DNA of 64,000 nt, from assembly GCF_001507645.1 (NCBI RefSeq), contig NZ_CP013909.1:1922001-1986000 (forward strand), given 5' to 3'. A program made the position numbers and the translations under genes. Below the pieces are notes generated by a model. It was not told the origin of the DNA and did no database searches. It saw nothing but the letters and a program-made list of their open reading frames with translations. Origin of the DNA: Hymenobacter sedentarius. Lineage in GTDB: Bacteria > Bacteroidota > Bacteroidia > Cytophagales > Hymenobacteraceae. Positions 27,357 through 41,945 of this stretch are shown here, one piece after another; the stretch's first letter is position 1; every line of letters begins with the position of its first letter.

Positions 27357-29546
27357 ATGAAGAACCTGCTTACCAACCCCCTGTTGCAGATTGCGTTTTT
27401 TGCAACCTCGGTAGGGGGAATGCTTGCCTGGAGTGGCCAGCACAACACGCTGGAGGCCTCGAGCCACCGCGAAGCCCCGCGCATTGCCGACGACCCGCTG
27501 GCTGATAATACCGATGTCTACGCCTTCCGCAGCCCTGACGCGCCGGCCAACGACGCCAACGCCACGGTCACCATCATCGCCGATTACATTCCCTTTGAAC
27601 TGCCGCAGGGCGGCCCCACCTATTACACGTTCGGTGAAAATATTCAGTACGATATCCACGTCAAGAACAACCCGACTACTACCGGGGACGACATTATCTA
27701 CCGCTTCACCTTCACCCGCACCAACGAGGACCCTTCCACCTTCTTCCGCGTGCGGTTGGGCAAAGAAAATCTGCGGACCTTCTACTCGTTGGATGAAATT
27801 CGGGGCGGTGCTACCACCCGGCTGCTGAGTTCGGTGCCCGTGCCGGCCCCCAACATCGGGCCCCGCTCCATTGAGTCGCCGGTTGGGCTGAACCAAACCA
27901 ATGGCTACGCAGCTTACCAGCGGCGGCACATTCAGCAGCTTGGCAACGGCATGAAAGTGTTTTGTGGCCAGACCGACGACCCCTTTTTCACCGACATCGG
28001 GGCCATTTTTGACCTGGGCAGCGTGCGGGGCCGCGGCAAAGCCCGCGACGGCCTGGCCCGCTTCAACACCCACGCCATTGCGATGCAAATCCCGGTGCGG
28101 CTGCTGGCCAGAACCGGCGCCAATCTGACGGCGGCCACCAACATTCTGGATTCCAACTACATCATCGGCGTGTGGGCTTCGGCCAATCGGCAGGCGCTGC
28201 GCACCATCGTCAACGGGTCGGATGTGCAGTCGGGCAATTTTGTGCAGGTGTCGCGCCTGGGCATGCCGCTCACCAACGAAGTAATCCAGCCGATTGGGCT
28301 GAAAGACGAATGGAACTCGGCCACGCCCTTTGGCACGCCGCTGCCCGCGGCCGGCTCCCAGCAGTTCCGCTTCGACGAGAACCTGATGAACCCGGAACTG
28401 GGCCTGTACGTGGCTGATAACACGCCCAGAAACGGGGCTGCTCCCAAACCAGCCGGGCAGACCTATTTCGGCGAGGCCGTGCCCGGGCTCAGCCCCCTGC
28501 GCGTGCAAACCCGGTCGCTGGCGGGGCTGCTGCCTTCGGTGCCCAATGGGTTCGACTTCCGCAACGGGGCCAACGGCCTGGCGGGGCTGGCTGGCTCTTC
28601 GGCGGTGGCGGGCACGGCGCTGGCCCCGATTGCGGCCGGCGGGTTTGGCGAGTTTCTGCTGCGCCCGGGCAAGCCGCGCTCGGTGGACTTGCTGCCCCTC
28701 TTCCACACCGGTGTGCCCAACCTGATTCCCTACCAGCTGGCCACCGGCAAAAACGGCAACCCGCTGGCGGCCGGCAAGCCGTTTATCAACAACTTCCTGC
28801 CCACCTTTGGCGACATGCTGCGCCTGAACATGGCCGTGCCCCCCACGCCCCGCAACTCGCCCGACTTCAGCTCGGAAGGTTTGCTGGCCGCGGCGGTGCT
28901 GGGCCTGACCGACCCGCGTTTCAATAGCAGCGCGGCGCTGCAGTTTATTCCGAACATGGACGGCTTCCCCAACGGGCGCCGCCTGGAGGACGACGTGACC
29001 CGCATCGAACTGCAGGCCGTGGGCGGAGTGGTGCTGGCCGCCATTGGCCTGTGGTACGACGACTACGTGGTGGGCCGCAGCCCGAGCCCGCTCACCCCGC
29101 AATTGCTGCGGGTGCTGAATTTTACCACCAATGTGGAGCAGAACGATAAGGCCTTTCGTGGGGCTTTCCCCTACCTGCCCATTCCGTGGAACGGGTTGGA
29201 GGGCGGCGACATCGCCCGGCGAAACCCGGGCTATCTGGGCAACGGCAACGGGGCCGGCGGCTTAAACATGCAGCCCAGCCTGATTGTGGTGAATTGCTAC
29301 CCCAACCCCTTCGCAGACCGCACGACGTTCTTCTTTAACCTGGCGTTTGCTACCAACGTGACCATCGTCGTGACCGACGTGATATCGGGCCACCAAGTAG
29401 CTACCGTGGTTGCGGGCACAAGCTGCGCCGCCGGCACCAACCAGGTAGTATGGCAGCCGGGCAACAACGTTCGCCCCGGCCAATACAATGTGACGCTGTA
29501 CAGCGGCAATACTGCGCTGGCCTCGGTGCGAATTGAGCGGCAATAA
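27357..29546 (+). CDS. DUF4331 family secreted protein with T9SS tail (copy 1)
   Basis: The 729-residue product begins with a membrane-targeting segment (FFATSVGGMLAWSG) and then the DUF4331 hallmark ASSHREAPRIADDPLADNTD, VYAFRSPD. The family (PF14224) has no established function. The remainder is a repeat-poor beta-rich domain, ending after residue 640 with a type A sorting domain (CYPNPFADRTTFFFNL, then VVWQPGNNVRPGQYNVTLYS). Surface display or release by the type IX system is therefore likely. It is the first of a tandem pair and shares a 135-base identical stretch with copy 2. Confidence 0.88.
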   Translation: MKNLLTNPLLQIAFFATSVGGMLAWSGQHNTLEASSHREAPRIADDPLADNTDVYAFRSPDAPANDANATVTIIADYIPFELPQGGPTYYTFGENIQYDIHVKNNPTTTGDDIIYRFTFTRTNEDPSTFFRVRLGKENLRTFYSLDEIRGGATTRLLSSVPVPAPNIGPRSIESPVGLNQTNGYAAYQRRHIQQLGNGMKVFCGQTDDPFFTDIGAIFDLGSVRGRGKARDGLARFNTHAIAMQIPVRLLARTGANLTAATNILDSNYIIGVWASANRQALRTIVNGSDVQSGNFVQVSRLGMPLTNEVIQPIGLKDEWNSATPFGTPLPAAGSQQFRFDENLMNPELGLYVADNTPRNGAAPKPAGQTYFGEAVPGLSPLRVQTRSLAGLLPSVPNGFDFRNGANGLAGLAGSSAVAGTALAPIAAGGFGEFLLRPGKPRSVDLLPLFHTGVPNLIPYQLATGKNGNPLAAGKPFINNFLPTFGDMLRLNMAVPPTPRNSPDFSSEGLLAAAVLGLTDPRFNSSAALQFIPNMDGFPNGRRLEDDVTRIELQAVGGVVLAAIGLWYDDYVVGRSPSPLTPQLLRVLNFTTNVEQNDKAFRGAFPYLPIPWNGLEGGDIARRNPGYLGNGNGAGGLNMQPSLIVVNCYPNPFADRTTFFFNLAFATNVTIVVTDVISGHQVATVVAGTSCAAGTNQVVWQPGNNVRPGQYNVTLYSGNTALASVRIERQ

Positions 29547-29936
29547 GAACAAGCATTGAGTTATCTAAAGAAGCCGTCCGCCGGTCTGGGACTGCACCGG
29601 CGGGCGGCGTCTTTCAGAGGCTGCTGCACCATATACAATGGGGCTGGTTCAATAGGCCCACTGCATAGCTCGCCGCGATGATAATGTTGCAGCAAAAGCT
29701 GAAGTACTTTGGGATAATGGCACTATTGCAGCGTTTTTGATGACTGATTTTCATGAATGCGTTGACATTATTATAAAATTATTGACAAGTTTAAAAACTG
29801 GTCAAAGGGAATATTCGTAGGTAAGTAAAGAGGGCGCTATCTCGTTGCAAGCCAAGAATTCTAGCTGATTTCCGGCGTGCTGCCCGCATCGCTCTGTTTT
29901 GTTCTTCTTTTTTCACCTACAGCCCTTTTCGTATTT
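29547..29936 (+). other. Spacer between the two DUF4331 genes
   Basis: This 390-base spacer contains a terminator-like hairpin at its 5' end and an AT-rich stretch around 29750-29830 that is the likely promoter region for copy 2. No exact TAnnTTTG box was found and no gene is apparent. Confidence 0.55.
29573..29613 (+). terminator. Terminator-like hairpin after DUF4331 copy 1
   Basis: GCCGTCCGCCGGT (29573-29585) pairs with ACCGGCGGGCGGC (29596-29608) with one T-G pair, followed by GTCTTTC. The stem is strong but the U tract is short. Confidence 0.65.
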
Positions 29937-32150
29937 ATGAAAAACCTGTTTACTCGTCCTCTCTTCCACGTTGCGCTGCTCGCAACGTCGATAGGGGGAA
30001 TGCTCGCCTGGAGTGGCCAGCACAACACGCTGGAGGCCTCGAGCCACCGCGAAGCCCCCCTTATCGCCGACGACCCGCTGGCTGATAATACCGACCTCTA
30101 CGCCTTCCGCAGCCCCGACGCGGCGGCCAACGACGCCAACGCCACGGTCACCATTATCGCCAACTACATCCCGTTGGAGCTGCCCCAGGGCGGACCTATT
30201 TACAATACGTTCGGCGAGAATATCCAGTACGATATCCACGTTAAGAACGACGCCACTACCACCGGCGACGACATCATCTACCGCTTTACCTTCACCCGCA
30301 CCAACGAAGACGGCTCCACTTTCTTTCGGGTGCGCTTGGGCAAGGAAAACCAGAAGACGACTTACCGCCTGGATGTAATCCGGGGCGGCAACACCACCAA
30401 CCTGGTGCTGGCGGGCACGGTGCCCGCGCCAAACATTGGCCCCCGCTCTATTGAAGGCGCAGCGGGGCTCAACAAAACAACCGGCTACACGGCCTACATG
30501 GCCAGCGCCGTGCAGACGCTCAGCAACGGCATGAAAGTGTTTTGCGGGCCTACGGACGACCCTTTCTTTACGGACCTGGGCGCCATCTTCGATTTGGGTG
30601 GGGTGCGCGGCCCGCAAACGCCCACCGGTAACAACAACGGCACGGCCCGCGACGGCCTGGCCCGCAAGAACACCCACGCCATTGCCCTGCAAATCCCGGT
30701 GCGCCTGTTGGCCAAAACCGGCGCCGATTTGACGGCCGCTACCAACATTCTGGATTCCAACTACATCATCGGCGTGTGGGCTTCGGCCAGCCGCCAGTCG
30801 CTGCGCACCATCAACGCCGACGGCACCCGGACGCATACGGGCAACTTCGTGCAGGTGTCGCGCCTGGGCATGCCGCTCACCAACGAAGTGGTGCAGCCCA
30901 TTGGGCTGAAAGACGAATGGAACTCGGCCACGCCCTTTGGCACGCCACTGCCCGCGGCCGGCTCCCAGCAGTTCCGCTTCGACGAGAACCTGATGAACCC
31001 CGAGCTGGGCCTGTACCTGGCCGATAACACGCCGGTGAACGGCGCGGCGGCCAAGCCCACCGGCCAGACCTACTACGGCGAGGCCGTGCCCGGCCTGCGC
31101 CCCCTGCGCATCCAGTCCAAGTCGCTGGCCGGTGCCGCTGGCCTGCCGGCTGCCGGCTTTGACTTCCGCAACGGGGCCAATGGCCTGGCGGGCCTGGTCG
31201 GCAACGCGGCCCTCAACGGCACCGCGCTGGCGCCCATCGCCGGCGGTGGCTTTGGCGAGTACTTGCTGCGGCCGCAGTCGGGCCCCGGCATGGGCAAGCC
31301 GCGCTCGGTGGACTTGCTGCCCATTTTCCACACGGGCGTGCCCAACCTGATTCCCTACCAGCTGGCCACCGGCAAAAACGGCAACCCGCTGGCGGCCGGC
31401 AAGCCGTTTATCAACAACTTCCTGCCCACCTTTGGCGACATGCTGCGCCTGAACATGGCCGTGCCCCCCACGGACCGCAATTCGGCGGATTTCAGCTCCG
31501 AAGGCTTGCTGGCCGCGGCCAAGCTGGGCCTGACGGACCCGCGCTACAACGCCAATAACACGCTGCAGCTGATTCCGAACATGGACGGCTTCCCCAACGG
31601 GCGCCGCCTGGAAGACGACGTGACCCGCATCGAGCTGCAGGCCGTGGGCGGCGTGGTGCTGGCCGCCATCGGCCTGTGGTACGACGACTACAACCCCGCC
31701 GCCACGCCGGCCCCGAGCCCCGTCACGGCTCAGCTGGGCAACGTGCTGGGCTTTAGCACCAACGTTGAGAAGAACGATACCACCTTCAAGGCGGCTTTCC
31801 CGTACTCGCAAACGCCCTGGAGCGGCACCACTGCCCAAAAGCAGGTGCTTTCGCAGCGTACCTCGGGCCTGGGCATGCAGCCGCGGCTGGCCAGCATAGA
31901 GGGCTACCCCAATCCCTTCGTGGGCAGCACCACCTTCCATTTTGACCTGGCCATGGCCTCAAACCTGAGCATCGTGGTGAGCGACGTGACGGGCCGCAAG
32001 GTGGCAACCGTGATGACGAACAAGAGCTACGGCGCCGGTGAGCACGAAATCACCTGGAAGCCCGGCAGCGAGGTAACCGCCGGCCAGTACATTGCCACGC
32101 TGTATAGCGGCAAAACCATGATTCAGTCGGTGCGCCTCGAGCGGCACTAA
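29937..32150 (+). CDS. DUF4331 family secreted protein with T9SS tail (copy 2)
   Basis: The 737 residues parallel copy 1 throughout: signal-like segment LLATSIGGMLAWSG, the hallmark EASSHREAPLIADDPLADNT, and a C-terminal sorting domain starting EGYPNPFVGSTTFHFDL. Copy 2 carries small insertions, such as a TPTGNNNGT segment and a GPGM segment, absent from copy 1. I choose the ATG at 29937, which aligns with copy 1; the upstream in-frame GTG at 29877 adds 20 residues. Function is unknown. Context suggests a role with the downstream TPR, HupE-like and TonB-receptor genes. A strong terminator follows. Confidence 0.88.
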   Translation: MKNLFTRPLFHVALLATSIGGMLAWSGQHNTLEASSHREAPLIADDPLADNTDLYAFRSPDAAANDANATVTIIANYIPLELPQGGPIYNTFGENIQYDIHVKNDATTTGDDIIYRFTFTRTNEDGSTFFRVRLGKENQKTTYRLDVIRGGNTTNLVLAGTVPAPNIGPRSIEGAAGLNKTTGYTAYMASAVQTLSNGMKVFCGPTDDPFFTDLGAIFDLGGVRGPQTPTGNNNGTARDGLARKNTHAIALQIPVRLLAKTGADLTAATNILDSNYIIGVWASASRQSLRTINADGTRTHTGNFVQVSRLGMPLTNEVVQPIGLKDEWNSATPFGTPLPAAGSQQFRFDENLMNPELGLYLADNTPVNGAAAKPTGQTYYGEAVPGLRPLRIQSKSLAGAAGLPAAGFDFRNGANGLAGLVGNAALNGTALAPIAGGGFGEYLLRPQSGPGMGKPRSVDLLPIFHTGVPNLIPYQLATGKNGNPLAAGKPFINNFLPTFGDMLRLNMAVPPTDRNSADFSSEGLLAAAKLGLTDPRYNANNTLQLIPNMDGFPNGRRLEDDVTRIELQAVGGVVLAAIGLWYDDYNPAATPAPSPVTAQLGNVLGFSTNVEKNDTTFKAAFPYSQTPWSGTTAQKQVLSQRTSGLGMQPRLASIEGYPNPFVGSTTFHFDLAMASNLSIVVSDVTGRKVATVMTNKSYGAGEHEITWKPGSEVTAGQYIATLYSGKTMIQSVRLERH

Positions 32151-32175
32151 CCCGCTGCGTGAGCCGTTGCTACTG

Positions 32176-32231
32176 AAATAAGAGCCGCCGGTTGGTCCTG
32201 TAGGGGCCGGCGGCGGCTCTTATTTATTTTA
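32176..32231 (+). terminator. Rho-independent terminator after DUF4331 copy 2
   Basis: AAATAAGAGCCGCCG (32176-32190) pairs perfectly with CGGCGGCTCTTATTT (32211-32225), followed by ATTTT. A TAAGTTTA octamer at 32230-32237, one base off the -7 consensus, could start the next unit. Confidence 0.9.
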
Positions 32232-32279
32232 AGTTTACCGTATTCCCCGCGTTGGGCTAACTCTTTTTCCTGCACTGCT

Positions 32280-33608
32280 TTGAGAAAGTACCTATACCCG
32301 TCTTTGCTTCTGGTTTTTGGCGTGCTGGTGCTGGCCATCTTCGTCTTTAAAAAACCCGATGCCCGCATGCCGGCCCTAAAAGAGCGGCACGGCGACCTGG
32401 CCGCCGGCGGCGAATGGCTCAATACCAAAGAGGCCGTGCGCGGCTTATTGGCCAAGCTGCGCCGCAACCCCGACGACTACAAAAGCCGCCTGCTGCTGGC
32501 CCAGGCCTACATGCAGGAAGGCCGCGTAACCGGCGACCATGCCTACTACGACGCCGCGGCCATGAAGCTGCTGGACGCCGTGCTGCGCGCCGAGCCCGAA
32601 AACTTTGAGGCCATGGCCTGCAAGGCCACGCTGTGCCTCACCCAGCACCACTTTTCCCAGGGCCTGGCCCTGGCCCAACAGGCCCAGCAGCTCAATCCCA
32701 ACAGCGGGTTTGTGTACGGGCTGCTGACCGACGCCCACGTGGAGCTGGGCCAGTACGACGAGGCCATCAAAATGGCCGACAAGATGAACCAGGTGCGCCC
32801 CGACCTGTCGGCGTACGCCCGGGTGAGCTACCTGCGCGAGATTTACGGCGACGTGCCCGGAGCCATTGAGGCCATGACCATGGCCGTGAAGGCCGGCCTC
32901 AGCGGCATGGAGCAAACCGAGTGGACGCGCGTGGCCCTGGGCCACCTGTACGAAATCAGCGGCGACCTTGCCCGGGCTGAGGGGTGCTACGAAACGTCGT
33001 TGCTGGTGCGGCCGGGCTATGCCTATGCCTTGGCTGGCCGGGGCCGGGTGGCGGCCGCCCGCCAGAACTACCCCGCCGCCATCAAGGACCTGCAGCAGGC
33101 CCGCGCCATGGTGAAGGATTACGCGTTTTCCGACGAATTGGTGGACCTGTACCGCCAAAGCGGGCAGTCGGGCAAAGCCAATGCTATGGCCAAGGAATCC
33201 ATTGAAATGCTGGCCAATGCCGCCAAACAGGCCGACGAAGACGAGGAGTTGGGCCACTACGCCGACCGCGAGCTGGCCTATGCCTACCTCAAAACCAACG
33301 AGCTGGACAGGGCCTTGGAGCACGCCAAAATTGAGTACGCGCGCCGCCCCGACAACATCGACGTGAACGAAACCCTGGCCTGGGTGTATTTCAAGCGGGG
33401 CCAGTACGCCGAAGCCCAAAAGTACATGCAAGTGGCGCGGCGCACCCATTCGCAAAACCCGGTGCTGCTGGGCCGGGCCGGCCTCATCCTGACCAAGCTG
33501 GGCAAAGTGGCAGAAGGCCAGGCCCTGCTGGAGAAGTCCCTGCGCACGGCGCCTTACCTCAACCCCGAGCTGGCGGCCGAAGGCAAAGCCCTAATAGCGG
33601 CCCGGTAA
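32280..33608 (+). CDS. Membrane-anchored tetratricopeptide-repeat protein
   Basis: The 442-residue product has an N-terminal membrane anchor (KYLYPSLLLVFGVLVLAIFV) and at least eight TPR-like helix pairs, for example LLAQAYMQEG, ALAQQAQQLNPNSG and ALGHLYEISGDLARAEGCYE. It should face the periplasm and act as a protein-interaction scaffold. No upstream ATG gives the anchor, so the start is probably TTG at 32280; the next in-frame ATG would remove the anchor. The HupE-like gene starts one base after its stop, so the two are cotranscribed and may act together. Confidence 0.8.
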   Translation: MRKYLYPSLLLVFGVLVLAIFVFKKPDARMPALKERHGDLAAGGEWLNTKEAVRGLLAKLRRNPDDYKSRLLLAQAYMQEGRVTGDHAYYDAAAMKLLDAVLRAEPENFEAMACKATLCLTQHHFSQGLALAQQAQQLNPNSGFVYGLLTDAHVELGQYDEAIKMADKMNQVRPDLSAYARVSYLREIYGDVPGAIEAMTMAVKAGLSGMEQTEWTRVALGHLYEISGDLARAEGCYETSLLVRPGYAYALAGRGRVAAARQNYPAAIKDLQQARAMVKDYAFSDELVDLYRQSGQSGKANAMAKESIEMLANAAKQADEDEELGHYADRELAYAYLKTNELDRALEHAKIEYARRPDNIDVNETLAWVYFKRGQYAEAQKYMQVARRTHSQNPVLLGRAGLILTKLGKVAEGQALLEKSLRTAPYLNPELAAEGKALIAAR

Positions 33609-33609
33609 G

Positions 33610-34299
33610 ATGCGTGCTGTGCTGCTCAACTCGCCCAAGCGCGCGGTTCCGGCCGGGCTGGTCGTGCTGGCCTTCGCTTTGCTGGCCCACCCCGCGGCGG
33701 CCCACGTGCTCGATGTGGACCTGAGCAAGCTTTCGCGCACCGAGATTTTCTGGACCTACCTGCGGCTGGGCTTCACCCACATCATTCCGCTGGGGTTCGA
33801 CCACATTCTGTTTATCATCAGCCTCTACCTGCTCGAGCCGCGGCTCAAGCCCGTGCTGCTGCAGGCCACGGCGTTCACCGTGGCGCACTCCATCACGCTG
33901 GGGCTGGCCATGTACGGCTTTATCCGGCCGCCCGCCGCGATTATTGAGCCAGTTATTGCGCTGTCCATCCTGTTTGTGGCCATCGAGAACATCATCACCG
34001 ACCGGCTCAATCCGTGGCGGGTGGCCATCGTGTTTGGCTTTGGGCTGGTGCACGGCATGGGCTTCGCCAGCGCGCTAACCGGGCTGGGGCTGCCGGCCAA
34101 GGACTATTTCGGCTCGCTCATTTCCTTCAACGTGGGCGTGGAATTGGGCCAGGTCTCCGTGATTCTGCTGGCCTGGGCCGTGGTGGGGCGCTGGGCGGCC
34201 GATAAAAGCTGGTACAAGCGCCGCGTGGTGGTGCCCGTGTCGGTGGCCATCGGCTTGGTGGCGGCTTACTGGACGGTGGAGCGGGTATTTTTTACCTGA
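33610..34299 (+). CDS. HupE/UreJ family membrane protein
   Basis: The 229-residue product has a signal-like N-terminus ending AHPAAA and then five or six membrane helices. The family hallmarks are HIIPLGFDHILFIISLYLL (His and Asp-His of the HupE/UreJ motif) and GFGLVHGMGFASALTGLGL. HupE and UreJ proteins are implicated in nickel or cobalt movement for hydrogenase and urease, but this variant is found far from such enzymes and its substrate is unknown. It lies one base after the TPR gene and 69 bases before a small Cys/His protein gene. Confidence 0.85.
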   Translation: MRAVLLNSPKRAVPAGLVVLAFALLAHPAAAHVLDVDLSKLSRTEIFWTYLRLGFTHIIPLGFDHILFIISLYLLEPRLKPVLLQATAFTVAHSITLGLAMYGFIRPPAAIIEPVIALSILFVAIENIITDRLNPWRVAIVFGFGLVHGMGFASALTGLGLPAKDYFGSLISFNVGVELGQVSVILLAWAVVGRWAADKSWYKRRVVVPVSVAIGLVAAYWTVERVFFT

Positions 34300-34368
34300 G
34301 AACCTCCCGGCCCAACCATTCGAATACGCCGTTATTTGGTAGTTATTTCTATCGATTTTTTAATTGCT

Positions 34369-34764
34369 ATGCTGCGTACGCTGCTCGCCTTGCTGCTTTT
34401 GGCCAACTACCTGCTGGTGGTGGGGGCGGGGCTGGTGGTGGGCCGGCCGGCGGCGCCGGCTTTTTCGGCGGCGCATCCCTACGTGCACAGCCAGAACTGC
34501 CAGCAGCAGAACTACCTGCGCCTCGACTGCTTTGAGCAGTGCAACGGCCACCAGCAGGCAGTGAAAACGAAAGTGCCTACGGGCACAGGCCTGCACTTTC
34601 TCGCGCAGCTGAAAGGCCTGGACGTGCATTGTGCCCTGGCGCAGGAGGTCCAGCACCCGCAGCGGGTATTTCCACCGGCAGGGGCTGGCCAGCCGGTCGA
34701 AAAAGGGGCCGTCCTGGTTGCTGGGTTCGCGGGCCGCGATTACCCACCGCCCCGCTGGGGATAA
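34369..34764 (+). CDS. Small exported Cys/His-containing protein, possibly metal-related
   Basis: The 131-residue product starts with a membrane-targeting segment (LLALLLLANYLLVVGAGLVV). The following stretch AHPYVHSQNC, RLDCFEQCNGHQQ resembles the short Cys-rich patch (a CNG motif) in small Bacteroidota proteins often found next to TonB receptors. No named family is recognised with certainty. An in-frame start at 34336 adds 11 residues; the ATG at 34369 is preferred. The location between HupE-like and TonB-receptor genes supports a role in the same pathway. Confidence 0.6.
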   Translation: MLRTLLALLLLANYLLVVGAGLVVGRPAAPAFSAAHPYVHSQNCQQQNYLRLDCFEQCNGHQQAVKTKVPTGTGLHFLAQLKGLDVHCALAQEVQHPQRVFPPAGAGQPVEKGAVLVAGFAGRDYPPPRWG

Positions 34765-34914
34765 GTTGATTGCGGCTTCCGTCAGGGGGAATTCCCACCC
34801 GCCGGGGCCACCAGATGTCCTTGCTGCCAAGCCAGGCATCGCCTTCACTTATCCTTAAACGAACACCTTTAAGCCAGGCTGATAGTGCCCGGCCGGTGTC
34901 GCTTTTCCGTCTCT

Positions 34915-37248
34915 ATGATTTCTAATACTTTACTGAAAGCCTGCCGCTTTAGACCGGCAGTGCGTGGCCTGGGCCTATTGGTAATGGCCTTCTTTTTCTC
35001 CCAGGTATCGTTTGCTCAAGGCCCGGCTACGCTGCGCGGTACCGTGGCCGACTCCGCTTCCAGCCAGCCCCTGGAGGGCGTGAGCGTGGGCCTGGACGGC
35101 CGTCCAGGCGGCACCACCAGCGATGCCCGGGGCAACTTCCACCTCGGCGGCATCGCGGCCGGTACCTACACGCTGCGGGTGGGCGCCCTCGGCTACCGGG
35201 CGCAGGCCCTGTCCGTGACCCTGGCCGCGGGCGAAACCAAACGGGTGGCGGTGGCCCTGCCCACGGCCGCGCTCAACCTGAGCGAAGTGACCGTGAACCA
35301 GCCGCGCGACCCCAACCAAAGCCTGGCCGCCATCAGCCATATCGACCAGGTACTGCGGCCCCTGAGTTCGGCCCAGGACCTGCTGCGGCTGGTGCCGGGC
35401 CTGTTTATTGCCCAGCACGCGGGCGGCGGCAAGGCCGAACAGATTTTTTTGCGCGGCTTCGACTGCGACCACGGCACCGACTTCGCCGTGAGCATCGACG
35501 GCCTGCCGGTGAACATGGTGAGCCACGCCCACGGGCAGGGCTACGCCGATTTTCATTTTGTGATACCCGAAACGGTGGAGCAACTGAAAGTATACAAAGG
35601 CCCCTACACCGCCCGCTTCGGCGATTTTGCTACTTCGGGCGCCGGCGACTTTGTGACCAAAACCCGGCTGGAGCACAGCCAGGCCAAGCTCGAAGTGGGG
35701 CAGTTTGACACGCGCCGCGCCCTGGTGATGGTGGACTTGCTCGGGGCCGGCCATCATTTGCTCAGCCGGCAGCCGGAAAGCGCCTACGTGGCCTCGGAGT
35801 ACTACTTCACTAATTCGTATTTCGACGCCAAACAGCACTTCAAGCGCTTCAACGGCCTGCTGAAATACACCGGCCGGCTCTCCGACAATACCTCGCTCAC
35901 AGTGCTGGGCTCACGCTTCAGCTCCACGTGGAACGCCAGCGGCCAGATTCCGGAGCGCGGCGTGCGCGACGGCCTTATCTCGCGCTACGGCAGCATCGAC
36001 CCCAGCGAAGGCGGCCGCACCAGCCGCACCAACGCCTCGGCCGTGCTCACCACTGCCCTGCGCCACGATGCCGTACTGCGCCAGCAGGTATACTATTCCA
36101 AGTACGATTTCAGTTTGTATTCCAACTTCACCTTCTTTCTGCACGACCCGGTGAACGGCGACGAAATCAACCAGGCCGATGACCGCCACCTGTTCGGCTA
36201 CACCGGCACCTACGACCGGGATACGCGGGTGGGCAGACGTACCCTGCACACCACGGCGGGCCTGGGCACCCGCAACGATTTTTCCCGGGTGGACCTGCGC
36301 CACGCCGTGCGCCGGGTGATTACCGATACCACCACCACGGGCCGCCTTTTCGAGCAAAACCTGAACGCCTACCTCGACGAAACTCTGACTCTTACCGACC
36401 GCCTCACCGTGAACGCGGCCGTGCGGGCCGACGTTTTTACGTTTGATTTCCGGGGCTTGCTGGCCAACGACAACAGCCAGGCGCCGGAGCCGCTGCGGGG
36501 CCGGGTTATGCACGCCCGCGTGTCGCCCAAGCTAAACGTGTACTACCAGCTGTCGCCCGCTGTGCAGCTGTTTGCGCGCTCCGGCTTGGGCTTTCATTCC
36601 AACGATGCCCGCGCCGTGATTCGGGATGCTACCGCCAGCGTGCTGCCCCGCGCTACCGGCTACGAGGTGGGCAGCACCTTCAAGCCCGTGCCCAGCCTGG
36701 TGGTGAACGCCGCGCTGTGGGGCCTGCACCTGCAGGACGAGCTGGTGTACGTCGGCGATGAGGGCGTGACGGAGCGCACCGGCCCCACCCAGCGCTACGG
36801 CCTGGACCTGGCCGTGCGCTACCAGCTCAGCCGCCGCCTGTTCCTGGATACCGACCTGAACTACAACCACGGCCGCCAGACGAACGCGCCGCCCGGCGCC
36901 GACTACATCCCGCTGGCGCCCACCTTCACCACCATCGGCGGCCTGACCTACAAGGACGCGCGGGGCCTGAGCGGCAGCCTGCGCTACCGCCATATTGATA
37001 GCCGCCCAGCCAACGACGACGGCAGCATCCGGGCCCGCGGCTATTTCCTGCTCGATGCCGTGGTGGCCTACACCACGCCACGCTTCCAAGTCGGCGCCAC
37101 CGCCGAAAACCTGCTCAACGTAGCGTGGAACCAGGCCCAGTTTGCCACCCTCACCCGCCTGCCCAACGAGCCCAATGCGGTGGATGAGTTGCACTTTACC
37201 CCCGGAACGCCATTCTATGTGAAAGTGAATGCGAGCATGTTTTTCTAA
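34915..37248 (+). CDS. TonB-dependent outer-membrane receptor
   Basis: The 777-residue protein has a signal peptide (LLVMAFFFSQVSFAQ), an N-terminal carboxypeptidase-regulatory-like beta-sandwich at about residues 40-110 (TVADSASSQPLEGVSVGLDG), a plug domain (LRLVPGLFIAQHAGGGKAEQ, IFLRGFDCDHGTDFAVSIDG), and a 22-strand-type barrel ending in VKVNASMFF, with a terminal Phe as in outer-membrane barrels. It imports a substrate using TonB energy; no substrate can be read from the sequence. The ATG at 34915 is chosen over 34885. It ends the HupE-containing gene run and is convergent with the amylase gene. Confidence 0.93.
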   Translation: MISNTLLKACRFRPAVRGLGLLVMAFFFSQVSFAQGPATLRGTVADSASSQPLEGVSVGLDGRPGGTTSDARGNFHLGGIAAGTYTLRVGALGYRAQALSVTLAAGETKRVAVALPTAALNLSEVTVNQPRDPNQSLAAISHIDQVLRPLSSAQDLLRLVPGLFIAQHAGGGKAEQIFLRGFDCDHGTDFAVSIDGLPVNMVSHAHGQGYADFHFVIPETVEQLKVYKGPYTARFGDFATSGAGDFVTKTRLEHSQAKLEVGQFDTRRALVMVDLLGAGHHLLSRQPESAYVASEYYFTNSYFDAKQHFKRFNGLLKYTGRLSDNTSLTVLGSRFSSTWNASGQIPERGVRDGLISRYGSIDPSEGGRTSRTNASAVLTTALRHDAVLRQQVYYSKYDFSLYSNFTFFLHDPVNGDEINQADDRHLFGYTGTYDRDTRVGRRTLHTTAGLGTRNDFSRVDLRHAVRRVITDTTTTGRLFEQNLNAYLDETLTLTDRLTVNAAVRADVFTFDFRGLLANDNSQAPEPLRGRVMHARVSPKLNVYYQLSPAVQLFARSGLGFHSNDARAVIRDATASVLPRATGYEVGSTFKPVPSLVVNAALWGLHLQDELVYVGDEGVTERTGPTQRYGLDLAVRYQLSRRLFLDTDLNYNHGRQTNAPPGADYIPLAPTFTTIGGLTYKDARGLSGSLRYRHIDSRPANDDGSIRARGYFLLDAVVAYTTPRFQVGATAENLLNVAWNQAQFATLTRLPNEPNAVDELHFTPGTPFYVKVNASMFF

Positions 37249-40037: not shown

Positions 40038-40928
40038 ATGGTTGTATCGGTTGAATTGTGTGCTACTCGGGCTGTTTCCAAGTGGTCGGCTTGGGGGCGT
40101 TGCTTTTTGGTTGCAGTAGTGGTTGCGGGGCTAGGCAGTTGCCAGGTGCGCGCCGACGAAGCCCCTGCGCTACCAAGCTCAGTTCAGGCCGCATTGCTGG
40201 CGACCAGGCCAGCCGCAGTTTCAACTCCTGCTGACGAGACCCTGCCTGATTTGCTCGCGCTTACGCCCATCGCCCCGCTGCCCAACGTGCCCGACACCTT
40301 GCGCCAGGCCATCCGGCAGCTTCACGCGGCCCTGGGCCCCGCGGCGGCAGCCTTGCGCCCCGCCGTGCTGGAACAGGCCTGCGTGGGCTACCTCACCCTG
40401 CACCCCACCGGGCGCATCGAGCGCGGCGGCTTGCTGGCCGTGGCCGATATGGACCTGCCCAATACCACGGAGCGCCTCTGGGTGCTCGATTTGCGCCATG
40501 CGAAGGTGCTGCACCGCAGCCTGGTGGCGCACGGCGAAGGGTCGGGAGCTGTGCGGGCTACCCGGTTTTCGAACGAGGAGAAATCGGCCTGTACTTCGCT
40601 GGGCTTCTACCGTACCGCCGATACTTACGACGGCATCCACGGCTATTCGCGCCGCATCGAAGGGCTCGACAAGGGCCAGAACGCCAATGCCTACGACCGG
40701 TACGTGGTGCTGCACGCCGCCGACTATGCCAGCCCCAACTACATCCGGCAGCACGGCCACCTGGGCTACAGCCGCGGCTGCCCGGCCCTGCCGCCCGAGC
40801 AGTTCAAGGCCATTATTGCCTCGGTGCGGGTGGGCAGCCTGCTGCTGATAAGCGGCCCGAGGCTGACCTCGCGCTGGCTAGATGGGCGGGCTGCCGGGCG
40901 GCGCTTTTTGGCGCGGGGCTGGGAATAA
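40038..40928 (+). CDS. YkuD-type L,D-transpeptidase catalytic-domain lipoprotein
   Basis: This 296-residue protein belongs to the murein L,D-transpeptidase catalytic-domain family, which forms 3-3 cross-links or attaches proteins to peptidoglycan. It has a hydrophobic N-terminal segment followed by the possible lipobox VAGLGSC near residue 35. Active-site blocks are VVLHAADYASPNYIRQHG and LGYSRGCPALP, with catalytic Cys at about residue 248 in SRGCP. It is the first of two adjacent paralogues, 165 bases apart. Confidence 0.88.
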   Translation: MVVSVELCATRAVSKWSAWGRCFLVAVVVAGLGSCQVRADEAPALPSSVQAALLATRPAAVSTPADETLPDLLALTPIAPLPNVPDTLRQAIRQLHAALGPAAAALRPAVLEQACVGYLTLHPTGRIERGGLLAVADMDLPNTTERLWVLDLRHAKVLHRSLVAHGEGSGAVRATRFSNEEKSACTSLGFYRTADTYDGIHGYSRRIEGLDKGQNANAYDRYVVLHAADYASPNYIRQHGHLGYSRGCPALPPEQFKAIIASVRVGSLLLISGPRLTSRWLDGRAAGRRFLARGWE

Positions 40929-41093
40929 AGCACCTATCGGCAGGGCCGTTGAGCTGGCGCCCGGGCCCATAAGCGGAATCTTTTGGGCACCTCACAGGTT
41001 GTAAACCAGCCACCGACCTGCGTTCTCACGTAGAAGGTGGTGAGCCAGTAGCTGTTTGTGCGGCTGCGGGTTCTACAAGACACCAGCTAACCC

Positions 41094-41945
41094 ATGAAAA
41101 TTATGCACCAGCCCAGCGTAGTACAGCGTAAACGCAAGTCGCAACGGCGGGCCCGTCTGGCGCGCCGGGTGATGCCTTTTCTGGCTTCGCTGTTTCTGGC
41201 CACGCCCTTAGCCGGCCCGGTATCGAAGTCGATGGCCGGTACGCGCAACGAGCTGCACCTGCCGAGCAAAGCTTTTTCGGCCGCAGCAGTGTACGACCAA
41301 AAACTGCGGGCTACGTACGACGCCCTTGGGGCGGAGCAGCAGGGTCTGCGCTTCGAAACCTTCGAGAAAGCCATGACCGGCTACCTCAACCTGCGCCAGG
41401 CCGGCCGCCTCGCCGACGACAAGCAGCTGCTGACGGTGGTCGACTTCGACTTGCCTTCTACCGAGAAGCGCCTGTGGGTATTCGATTTGGGCAGCAACAA
41501 AACCTTGTTTCATACCCTGGTAGCCCACGGCCATAATTCCGGCGAGAACGAAGCCACCAACTTCTCCAACACCGACCAAAGCAACATGAGCAGCCTCGGT
41601 TTCTACGCTACCAGCAAGGAATACGAAGGCAAGCACGGCCGCAGCCTGCGCCTGGAAGGACTCGACGAAGGCTTCAACACCAACGCGGCCAGCCGTTCAG
41701 TGGTGATGCACGGGGCCGACTACGTGAGCGAAGAGTTTATCAAGCAGAACGGCCGTCTGGGCCGTAGCCTGGGCTGCCCGGCGTTGCCGCTCGACCAGTA
41801 CGCCCAGATTATCGACGCCGTGCATGGTGGCACCTGCCTGTTCATTAACAGGTCGGACGCCAGCTACAACTCTAAATACCTGAACGAGGACGCCGCCATC
41901 ACCGCATTGGTTTCTACCGCGTCGACGGCTGCTAACCATAGCTAG
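41094..41945 (+). CDS. YkuD-type L,D-transpeptidase catalytic-domain protein (paralogue 2)
   Basis: The 283 residues align with the preceding gene: a shared TFEKAMTGYLNLRQAGRL block, DFDLPSTEKRLWVFDLGSNK, SSLGFYATSKEYEGKHGRSL and the active-site SRS-like region GRSLGCPALPLDQ with Cys at about residue 228. The N-terminus is basic followed by a hydrophobic stretch (MPFLASLFLATPLAGPVSKS), so it is probably exported, but no lipobox is seen. The pair probably arose by tandem duplication. A strong terminator follows. Confidence 0.87.
   Translation: MKIMHQPSVVQRKRKSQRRARLARRVMPFLASLFLATPLAGPVSKSMAGTRNELHLPSKAFSAAAVYDQKLRATYDALGAEQQGLRFETFEKAMTGYLNLRQAGRLADDKQLLTVVDFDLPSTEKRLWVFDLGSNKTLFHTLVAHGHNSGENEATNFSNTDQSNMSSLGFYATSKEYEGKHGRSLRLEGLDEGFNTNAASRSVVMHGADYVSEEFIKQNGRLGRSLGCPALPLDQYAQIIDAVHGGTCLFINRSDASYNSKYLNEDAAITALVSTASTAANHS

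Follow-up and report, generated by a model that had tools for sequence, protein, structure and literature searches.

The anglerases, named in 2025, are HupE/UreJ-2 proteins with N-terminal-His domains (PMC12537917). These fused domains bind Cu and Ni with nanomolar affinity, and DUF6702 is another metal-binding family of the same study (PMC12537917). Characterised HupE proteins import nickel, and HupE_UreJ_2 (PF13795) and NicO (PF03824), which are separate Pfam families, are both tied to nickel/cobalt transport; few Ni/Co transporters were listed in Bacteroidota in this survey of 2009 (PMC2667541). On the side of the ligand, the ATCUN site is defined by a free H2N-X-X-His terminus (PMC7701195). 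The word DUF4331 is absent from the text of the anglerase study (PMC12537917), and no paper on DUF4331 or PF14224 was found in a searched literature made up mostly of journals outside subscription, in which the control, DUF6702, was found.

Here, a row of six genes from Hymenobacter sedentarius, headed by two DUF4331 genes, is compared with these systems. With a probability of roughly 0.6, the six genes constitute a single system for the capture and uptake of a transition metal.

Six genes in one row

The window, i.e., the whole stretch of 64,000 nucleotides that was analysed, corresponds to positions 1922001-1986000 of a single-contig genome of 4.87 Mb. Six genes were confirmed at 27357-37248, all on the + strand, in the order DUF4331 (twice), TPR, HupE_UreJ_2, small Cys/His and TonB-dependent receptor, in agreement with the unidirectional run over 10 kb described in the sequence-only reading. 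The flanking genes lie on the opposite strand, an Hsp70 gene upstream of the row and a gene for a T9SS-tailed alpha-amylase downstream. An Rfam scan of positions 20000-42000 of the window gave no riboswitch and no other family. Two tandem exported YkuD-type L,D-transpeptidase-like genes were seen at 40038-41945; many Hymenobacter relatives likewise have one or two genes of this type close to the locus.

The first two genes are the only DUF4331 genes of the genome. DUF4331 protein 1 (27357..29546, +, 729 aa) and DUF4331 protein 2 (29937..32150, +) are both predicted to be exported and cover the full length of the PF14224 profile with 390 and 389 bits, respectively (cut-off 27), which bears out their earlier identification. 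A longer GTG open reading frame of protein 2 begins at 29877; the start is most likely the ATG at 29937, judged by the same Met in relatives. The predicted mature proteins begin with Ser-Ser-His, encoded from base 27459 in the first gene and from base 30039 in the second. Both proteins had been described as T9SS-tailed. Protein 2 scored 27.5 bits with the tail model TIGR04183 (cut-off 23); the C-terminal tail of protein 1 is T9SS-like and stayed below the cut-off with 18.5 bits. The T9SS sortase PorU is encoded in the genome.

The third gene (32280..33608, +) codes for a TPR protein of 442 aa with strong TPR matches and an N-terminal membrane anchor, as had been claimed. The putative metal permease follows one base downstream, the spacing after the TPR stop being confirmed (33610..34299, +, 229 aa, PF13795 158 bits, cut-off 24.5). 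Its Pfam domain begins at residue 50 and its predicted mature N-terminus is His32 (base 33703), which follows Ala-Ala-Ala. The N-terminal His was found in 39/39 HupE relatives, with Ala before it in 38 of them, and His57, Asp64, His65, His93 and His148 were invariant in the 39; no paper on the His-x5-Asp-His signature was found in the literature searched. A second HupE_UreJ_2 gene, without an evident signal peptide, is located elsewhere in the genome and adjoins a putative M1 peptidase gene.

The fifth gene (34369..34764, +) encodes a small exported or anchored protein of 131 aa. To judge from an alignment of 41 sequences, 40 of which keep Cys44, Cys54, Cys58, His40 and His87, this open reading frame is a real gene, as the earlier description of a small exported Cys/His protein had it, and its start is likely the ATG at 34369 rather than the TTG at 34336. 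The last gene (34885..37248, +) encodes the TonB-dependent receptor, for which Pfam plug, barrel and carboxypeptidase-regulatory domains were found and whose plug is rich in His; its true start may be the Met at 34915.

A hairpin inside the conserved gene order

A terminator-like hairpin followed by a T-rich stretch is located between the second DUF4331 gene and the TPR gene, at about 32177..32224 (+, -35.9 kcal/mol). If it ended transcription completely, two unrelated units could simply abut here, a terminator-ended DUF4331 pair and a TPR-HupE-receptor operon, and the strength of the hairpin and the T-rich tail in the gap speak for such a division. However, the gene order recurs in many families and in three further phyla, and the hairpin itself is kept inside this order. 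Hairpins at or below -15 kcal/mol with a T-rich stretch were present 3' of DUF4331 in 29 of 36 Hymenobacteraceae gaps against 7/36 shuffled ones; they differ in sequence among relatives, occupy the same position, and the gene order across them is kept. The abutting of two unrelated units is thus very improbable. Because it recurs between DUF4331 and TPR, the hairpin looks like an attenuator inside one unit, which is its probable role, and as far as gene order tells the DUF4331 pair is no separate unit. The terminator reported earlier is real as a hairpin, and the separation of the DUF4331 pair that was read from it is not borne out by the gene order.

Linkage of DUF4331 with the permease and the receptor in Bacteroidota

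Among 296 Bacteroidota genomes, DUF4331 was found in 38, HupE_UreJ_2 in 87 and receptor orthologues (E <=1e-60) in 45. The 38 DUF4331 genomes included 25 with HupE and 25 with the receptor, which corresponds to odds ratios of co-presence of 6 and 23, respectively. HupE was located <=10 kb from DUF4331 in 9/25 genomes holding both, where 0.17 were expected, and the receptor in 19/25, where 0.13 were expected. Formal P values are too small owing to the relatedness of the genomes; the observed counts still exceed expectation more than 50-fold. The linked HupE pairs came from 5 families and the linked receptor pairs from 10, so the linkage is not a property of one clade. A chance neighbourhood, considered for both partners, was rejected on the same more than 50-fold excess. 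The sequence-only reading had named co-occurrence in related genomes as the check on its grouping, and DUF4331 goes together with HupE and the receptor in Bacteroidota by a wide margin, in an order that recurs across phyla.

The clustering of 79 named loci (flanks up to 10 kb, mostly Hymenobacter) gave TPR at 56, the receptor at 53 and HupE at 39, and the TPR gene adjoins DUF4331 in most loci. HupE is missing from many DUF4331 loci, including those of Rufibacter and most Flavobacteriaceae, and this counts against a common capture and uptake system. A second type of DUF4331 locus was seen at five Hymenobacter loci: a DUF4331 gene of ~630 aa is followed by one of ~1275 aa and then by a gene for a small exported protein that ends in a VPxDGGxSLLLAxGxxxGLKKLR-like sorting tail.

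DUF4331 was also found in 81/199 sampled Flavobacteriaceae genomes, nearly all of different genera. Where the flanks were read, the flavobacterial form consists of an N-terminal half beginning with Ala-Asp-His and a separate lipoprotein-like C-terminal half, followed by a TPR lipoprotein and often by the receptor. It follows from the split that the two halves can exist as chains of their own, with X-X-His staying on the N-terminal one. Genes for an ECF sigma factor and an RskA-type anti-sigma factor are located near many flavobacterial DUF4331 loci. ECF sigma and anti-sigma genes close to DUF4331 were noted individually at five Bacteroidota loci and at one Pseudoalteromonas locus, where a shared regulator is possible.

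The cassette in other phyla

Phyla beyond Bacteroidota were sampled through plasmid-borne DUF4331 genes, and the DUF4331-TPR-permease order recurred in Actinomycetota, Pseudomonadota and one cyanobacterium. In Streptomyces and in Nostoc the order is DUF4331, TPR, NicO, the NicO proteins having His-rich loops; a second Streptomycetaceae plasmid carries DUF4331, a class F sortase, TPR and an annotated nickel transporter. Marinobacter, Pseudoalteromonas, a comamonad (Comamonadaceae) and Lichenicola have DUF4331, a TPR-like gene and then HupE_UreJ_2, with one small gene after DUF4331 in some of these loci and a weak TPR match in Lichenicola. The permeases of other phyla likewise start with His after the signal peptide. 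In Variovorax, DUF4331 is followed downstream by a putative N-terminal-His HupE-like open reading frame, and in Miltoncostaea only DUF4331 and TPR were found. The receptor was absent from the DUF4331 loci read outside Bacteroidota, and this too counts against a common system.

On three Rhodobacterales plasmids, DUF4331 adjoins genes for an A24 peptidase and Gsp type II secretion, as if the type II secretion cluster were dedicated to DUF4331. Neither TPR nor the permease is present at these Rhodobacterales loci, which also counts against a common uptake function.

The exchange of NicO and HupE_UreJ_2 in the same slot points to a metal as the shared substrate. The NicO family includes exporters such as RcnA. 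The cassette could accordingly serve defence against metals: DUF4331 would soak up toxic copper or nickel at the surface, and the permease would export or redistribute the metal. Besides the NicO proteins with their His-rich loops in Streptomyces and Nostoc, the ECF sigma/anti-sigma genes adjoining many loci, a common stress-response layout, would suit such a role. However, the partner most tightly linked in Bacteroidota is the TonB receptor, which serves import; no gene of the cassette was found to belong to a family of metal efflux pumps, and the characterised HupE proteins work as nickel importers (PMC2667541). A defence function is consequently considered unlikely, and capture followed by uptake is preferred.

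The N-terminus and the fold of DUF4331

At each of the 58 loci that were retrieved with the profile alone (57 by pattern, together with locus L169), the predicted mature DUF4331 protein starts with NH2-X-X-His. The start is always preceded by a hydrophobic stretch and then by Ala, Ser or Gly. One of these three residues stood before X-X-His in 172/172 distinct DUF4331 regions, in a scan in which the His was demanded and the preceding residue left free. The alignment opens with Ser-Ser-His-Arg-Glu-Ala-Pro, and Ser2 to Pro7 are invariant in it. The variants of the motif are SSHREAP, ADHIDAP, GDHIDAP and SDHQDTT: Ala-Asp-His-Ile-Asp-Ala-Pro belongs to the remote, split flavobacterial form, Gly-Asp-His was found in one flavobacterium, Ser-Asp-His in Nostoc and Ala-Ser-His in Paraburkholderia. 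All N-termini have just two features in common, His at position 3 and an acidic residue at position 5.

The cleavage site is a prediction from residue rules, which counts against the preferred reading. In the Ser-Ser-His group, a cut shifted downstream by one residue would in many cases leave Glu or Asp at -3, where signal peptidase I avoids these residues; in the Ala-Asp-His group, cleavage could take place one residue later. The predicted NH2-X-X-His end corresponds to the terminus by which an ATCUN copper/nickel chelate is defined. Cu(II) is generally favoured by ATCUN sites, and this preference, set against the nickel-pointing context of the receptor, counts against the preferred reading.

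AlphaFold2 modelled the mature DUF4331 protein of the window with a mean pLDDT of 76 and a pTM of 0.84, in which strands dominate the N-terminal part and the rest is more helical. The flavobacterial N-terminal half was modelled with a mean pLDDT of 86.5 as strand-rich with a loose N-terminus. From one structure-prediction alignment, rows from plasmid records were left out. Residues 1-15, although partly invariant, had low confidence in the model of the window protein (pLDDT <50). An invariant and poorly ordered N-terminus would be compatible with a chelating tail, short of proof. Foldseek with both models returned no match at E <=0.001, and the search of PDB sequences with the DUF4331 profile gave nothing credible. 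The VIA list for the N-terminal half, headed by 1ug9 (Z 6.9) level with antibody domains, says only that this half is modelled as a beta-sandwich.

The same data bear on another idea, in which DUF4331 would act at the surface as an enzyme or bind an organic ligand, e.g., a metal chelate or cofactor; invariant Arg, Asp and Asn residues and not the N-terminus would do the work, and the receptor would take up the product. Many charged residues are invariant outside the N-terminus (Asp16, Asp19, Asp185, Arg275, Glu283, Lys291, Arg470, Arg522, Arg523 and Asp526), the beta-sandwich of the modelled N-terminal half is common in ligand-binding modules, and the barrel of the receptor is similar to PqqU and CntO, whose ligands are organic or metal-organic. 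Nevertheless, no solved enzyme fold was matched, conservation in the remotest members is reduced to the X-X-His end and some acidic residues, and the permease partner is of the nickel/cobalt type in two different families. This explanation is judged improbable, and metal capture by the X-X-His end is retained as the preferred one.

The receptor and the likely metal

Eight receptors encoded at DUF4331-linked loci all have the plug residues His178, 196, 214, 216 and 224. Profile searches among solved structures gave PqqU, the metal-pseudopaline receptor CntO and BtuB as relatives, each over part of the length only. At an Adhaeribacter swui locus (L123, 5199-7462), the receptor beside DUF4331 is annotated as two overlapping frames on the opposite strand and may be broken.

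Orthologues of the receptor also occur away from DUF4331. At two loci they adjoin a long N-terminal-His HupE_UreJ_2 protein, and others sit in urease operons. The order at locus L154 (3001-8737) is UreG, UreD, a UreH-like membrane protein (assigned by eye), a urea transporter and the receptor; at L147 (4208-9870) the receptor comes after a UreH-like protein (also by eye), a urea transporter and a small protein rich in His. Urease alpha was located 7-8 kb from the receptor in 3/8 genomes holding both, against 0.036 expected. This urease-operon link is the strongest single pointer to nickel, and the orthologues that end urease operons are candidate outer-membrane nickel receptors of urease-bearing Bacteroidota.

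A substrate of the nickel/cobalt type had been proposed from the HupE and receptor genes. A transition metal is indicated by HupE_UreJ_2 and NicO, by a DUF6702 protein encoded between TPR and HupE in two relatives, by the urease-operon receptors and by the X-X-His and His N-termini, and which metal it is we infer. Nickel is most likely, followed by copper and then cobalt: the links of the receptor with urease and of the cassette with NicO speak for nickel, ATCUN and anglerase chemistry for copper. The earlier statement that no hydrogenase or urease is nearby can be extended from the cluster to the whole genome, in which urease (PF00449), NiFe hydrogenase (PF00374) and LarA gave no match. The lack of a match to these nickel enzymes as consumers of the metal counts against the preferred reading, and since B12-binding proteins are present, cobalt stays possible.

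Proposed function of the locus

In the proposed capture and uptake system, DUF4331 would be exported and held at the cell surface by the T9SS tail, where its free NH2-Ser-Ser-His end would act as an ATCUN chelator of a divalent metal. Passage of the metal, or of a complex of it, through the outer membrane would be the task of the TonB-dependent receptor, whose plug is rich in His. In the periplasm, the small Cys/His and TPR proteins may pass the metal on; alternatively, they may keep DUF4331 or the permease in position. The HupE/UreJ-2 permease, beginning with His, would move the ion across the inner membrane. Owing to the hairpin after DUF4331, the surface protein may be produced at a higher level than the membrane parts. 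The sequence-only reading had already suggested capture at the surface, import through the outer membrane and passage across the inner one; the anatomy of the locus fits these steps, and we infer the metal binding, the metal and the inward direction.

A wider reading is held tentatively, at somewhat less than even odds. DUF4331 may represent an unrecognised cross-phylum family of exported metal-capture proteins that work through the mature X-X-His end and hand nickel or copper via TPR to an N-terminal-His permease, the TonB receptor being added in Bacteroidota. As part of this reading, export would follow the route of the lineage, i.e., T9SS in Bacteroidota, apparently type II secretion in Rhodobacterales and perhaps sortase in Streptomycetaceae. 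It would assign a function that can be tested to a DUF family present in Bacteroidota, Actinomycetota, Pseudomonadota and Cyanobacteriota, provide a candidate outer-membrane nickel receptor for Bacteroidota and extend the idea of the N-terminal-His metal 'angler' to a separate surface protein.

Comparison with known systems

Like the anglerases Ang-1 and Ang-2 (PMC12537917), the HupE protein of the window is a HupE/UreJ-2 permease with His predicted as the first residue after the signal peptide, and metal capture with uptake is proposed in both cases. Unlike them, it is devoid of an N-terminal extracytoplasmic beta-sandwich and has ~25 residues before the first helix, a difference that counts against the preferred reading; the separate surface DUF4331, the TPR protein and the TonB receptor are additions absent from the anglerase paper (PMC12537917). 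Some Pseudomonadota DUF4331 cassettes contain a long HupE with an N-terminal-His domain.

With ATCUN proteins such as serum albumin (PMC7701195), DUF4331 would share the free NH2-X-X-His, as predicted, and the chemistry of a copper(II)/nickel(II) chelate. An ATCUN site at the extracellular end of human Ctr1 (PMC8953729) is linked to uptake, as proposed for DUF4331. Unlike albumin and Ctr1, DUF4331 is a bacterial surface protein encoded in an operon with a nickel-type permease, and its metal binding is predicted.

Known TonB-dependent nickel/cobalt receptors occur with HupE, NiCoT or UreH, and the receptor of the window likewise adjoins a nickel/cobalt-type permease, whereas its subfamily is not tied to a characterised member. 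The SusCD-type systems of Bacteroidota combine a surface-exposed binder with a TonB receptor, as is proposed here; at this locus, in contrast, the binder is DUF4331 with a T9SS tail, SusD is missing and the inner-membrane partner is a metal permease. Metal uptake from the outer membrane to the cytoplasm with N-terminal-His chelators is an already known kind of system; the DUF4331 module at the surface, with its X-X-His end and its TPR partner, is new as far as could be checked.
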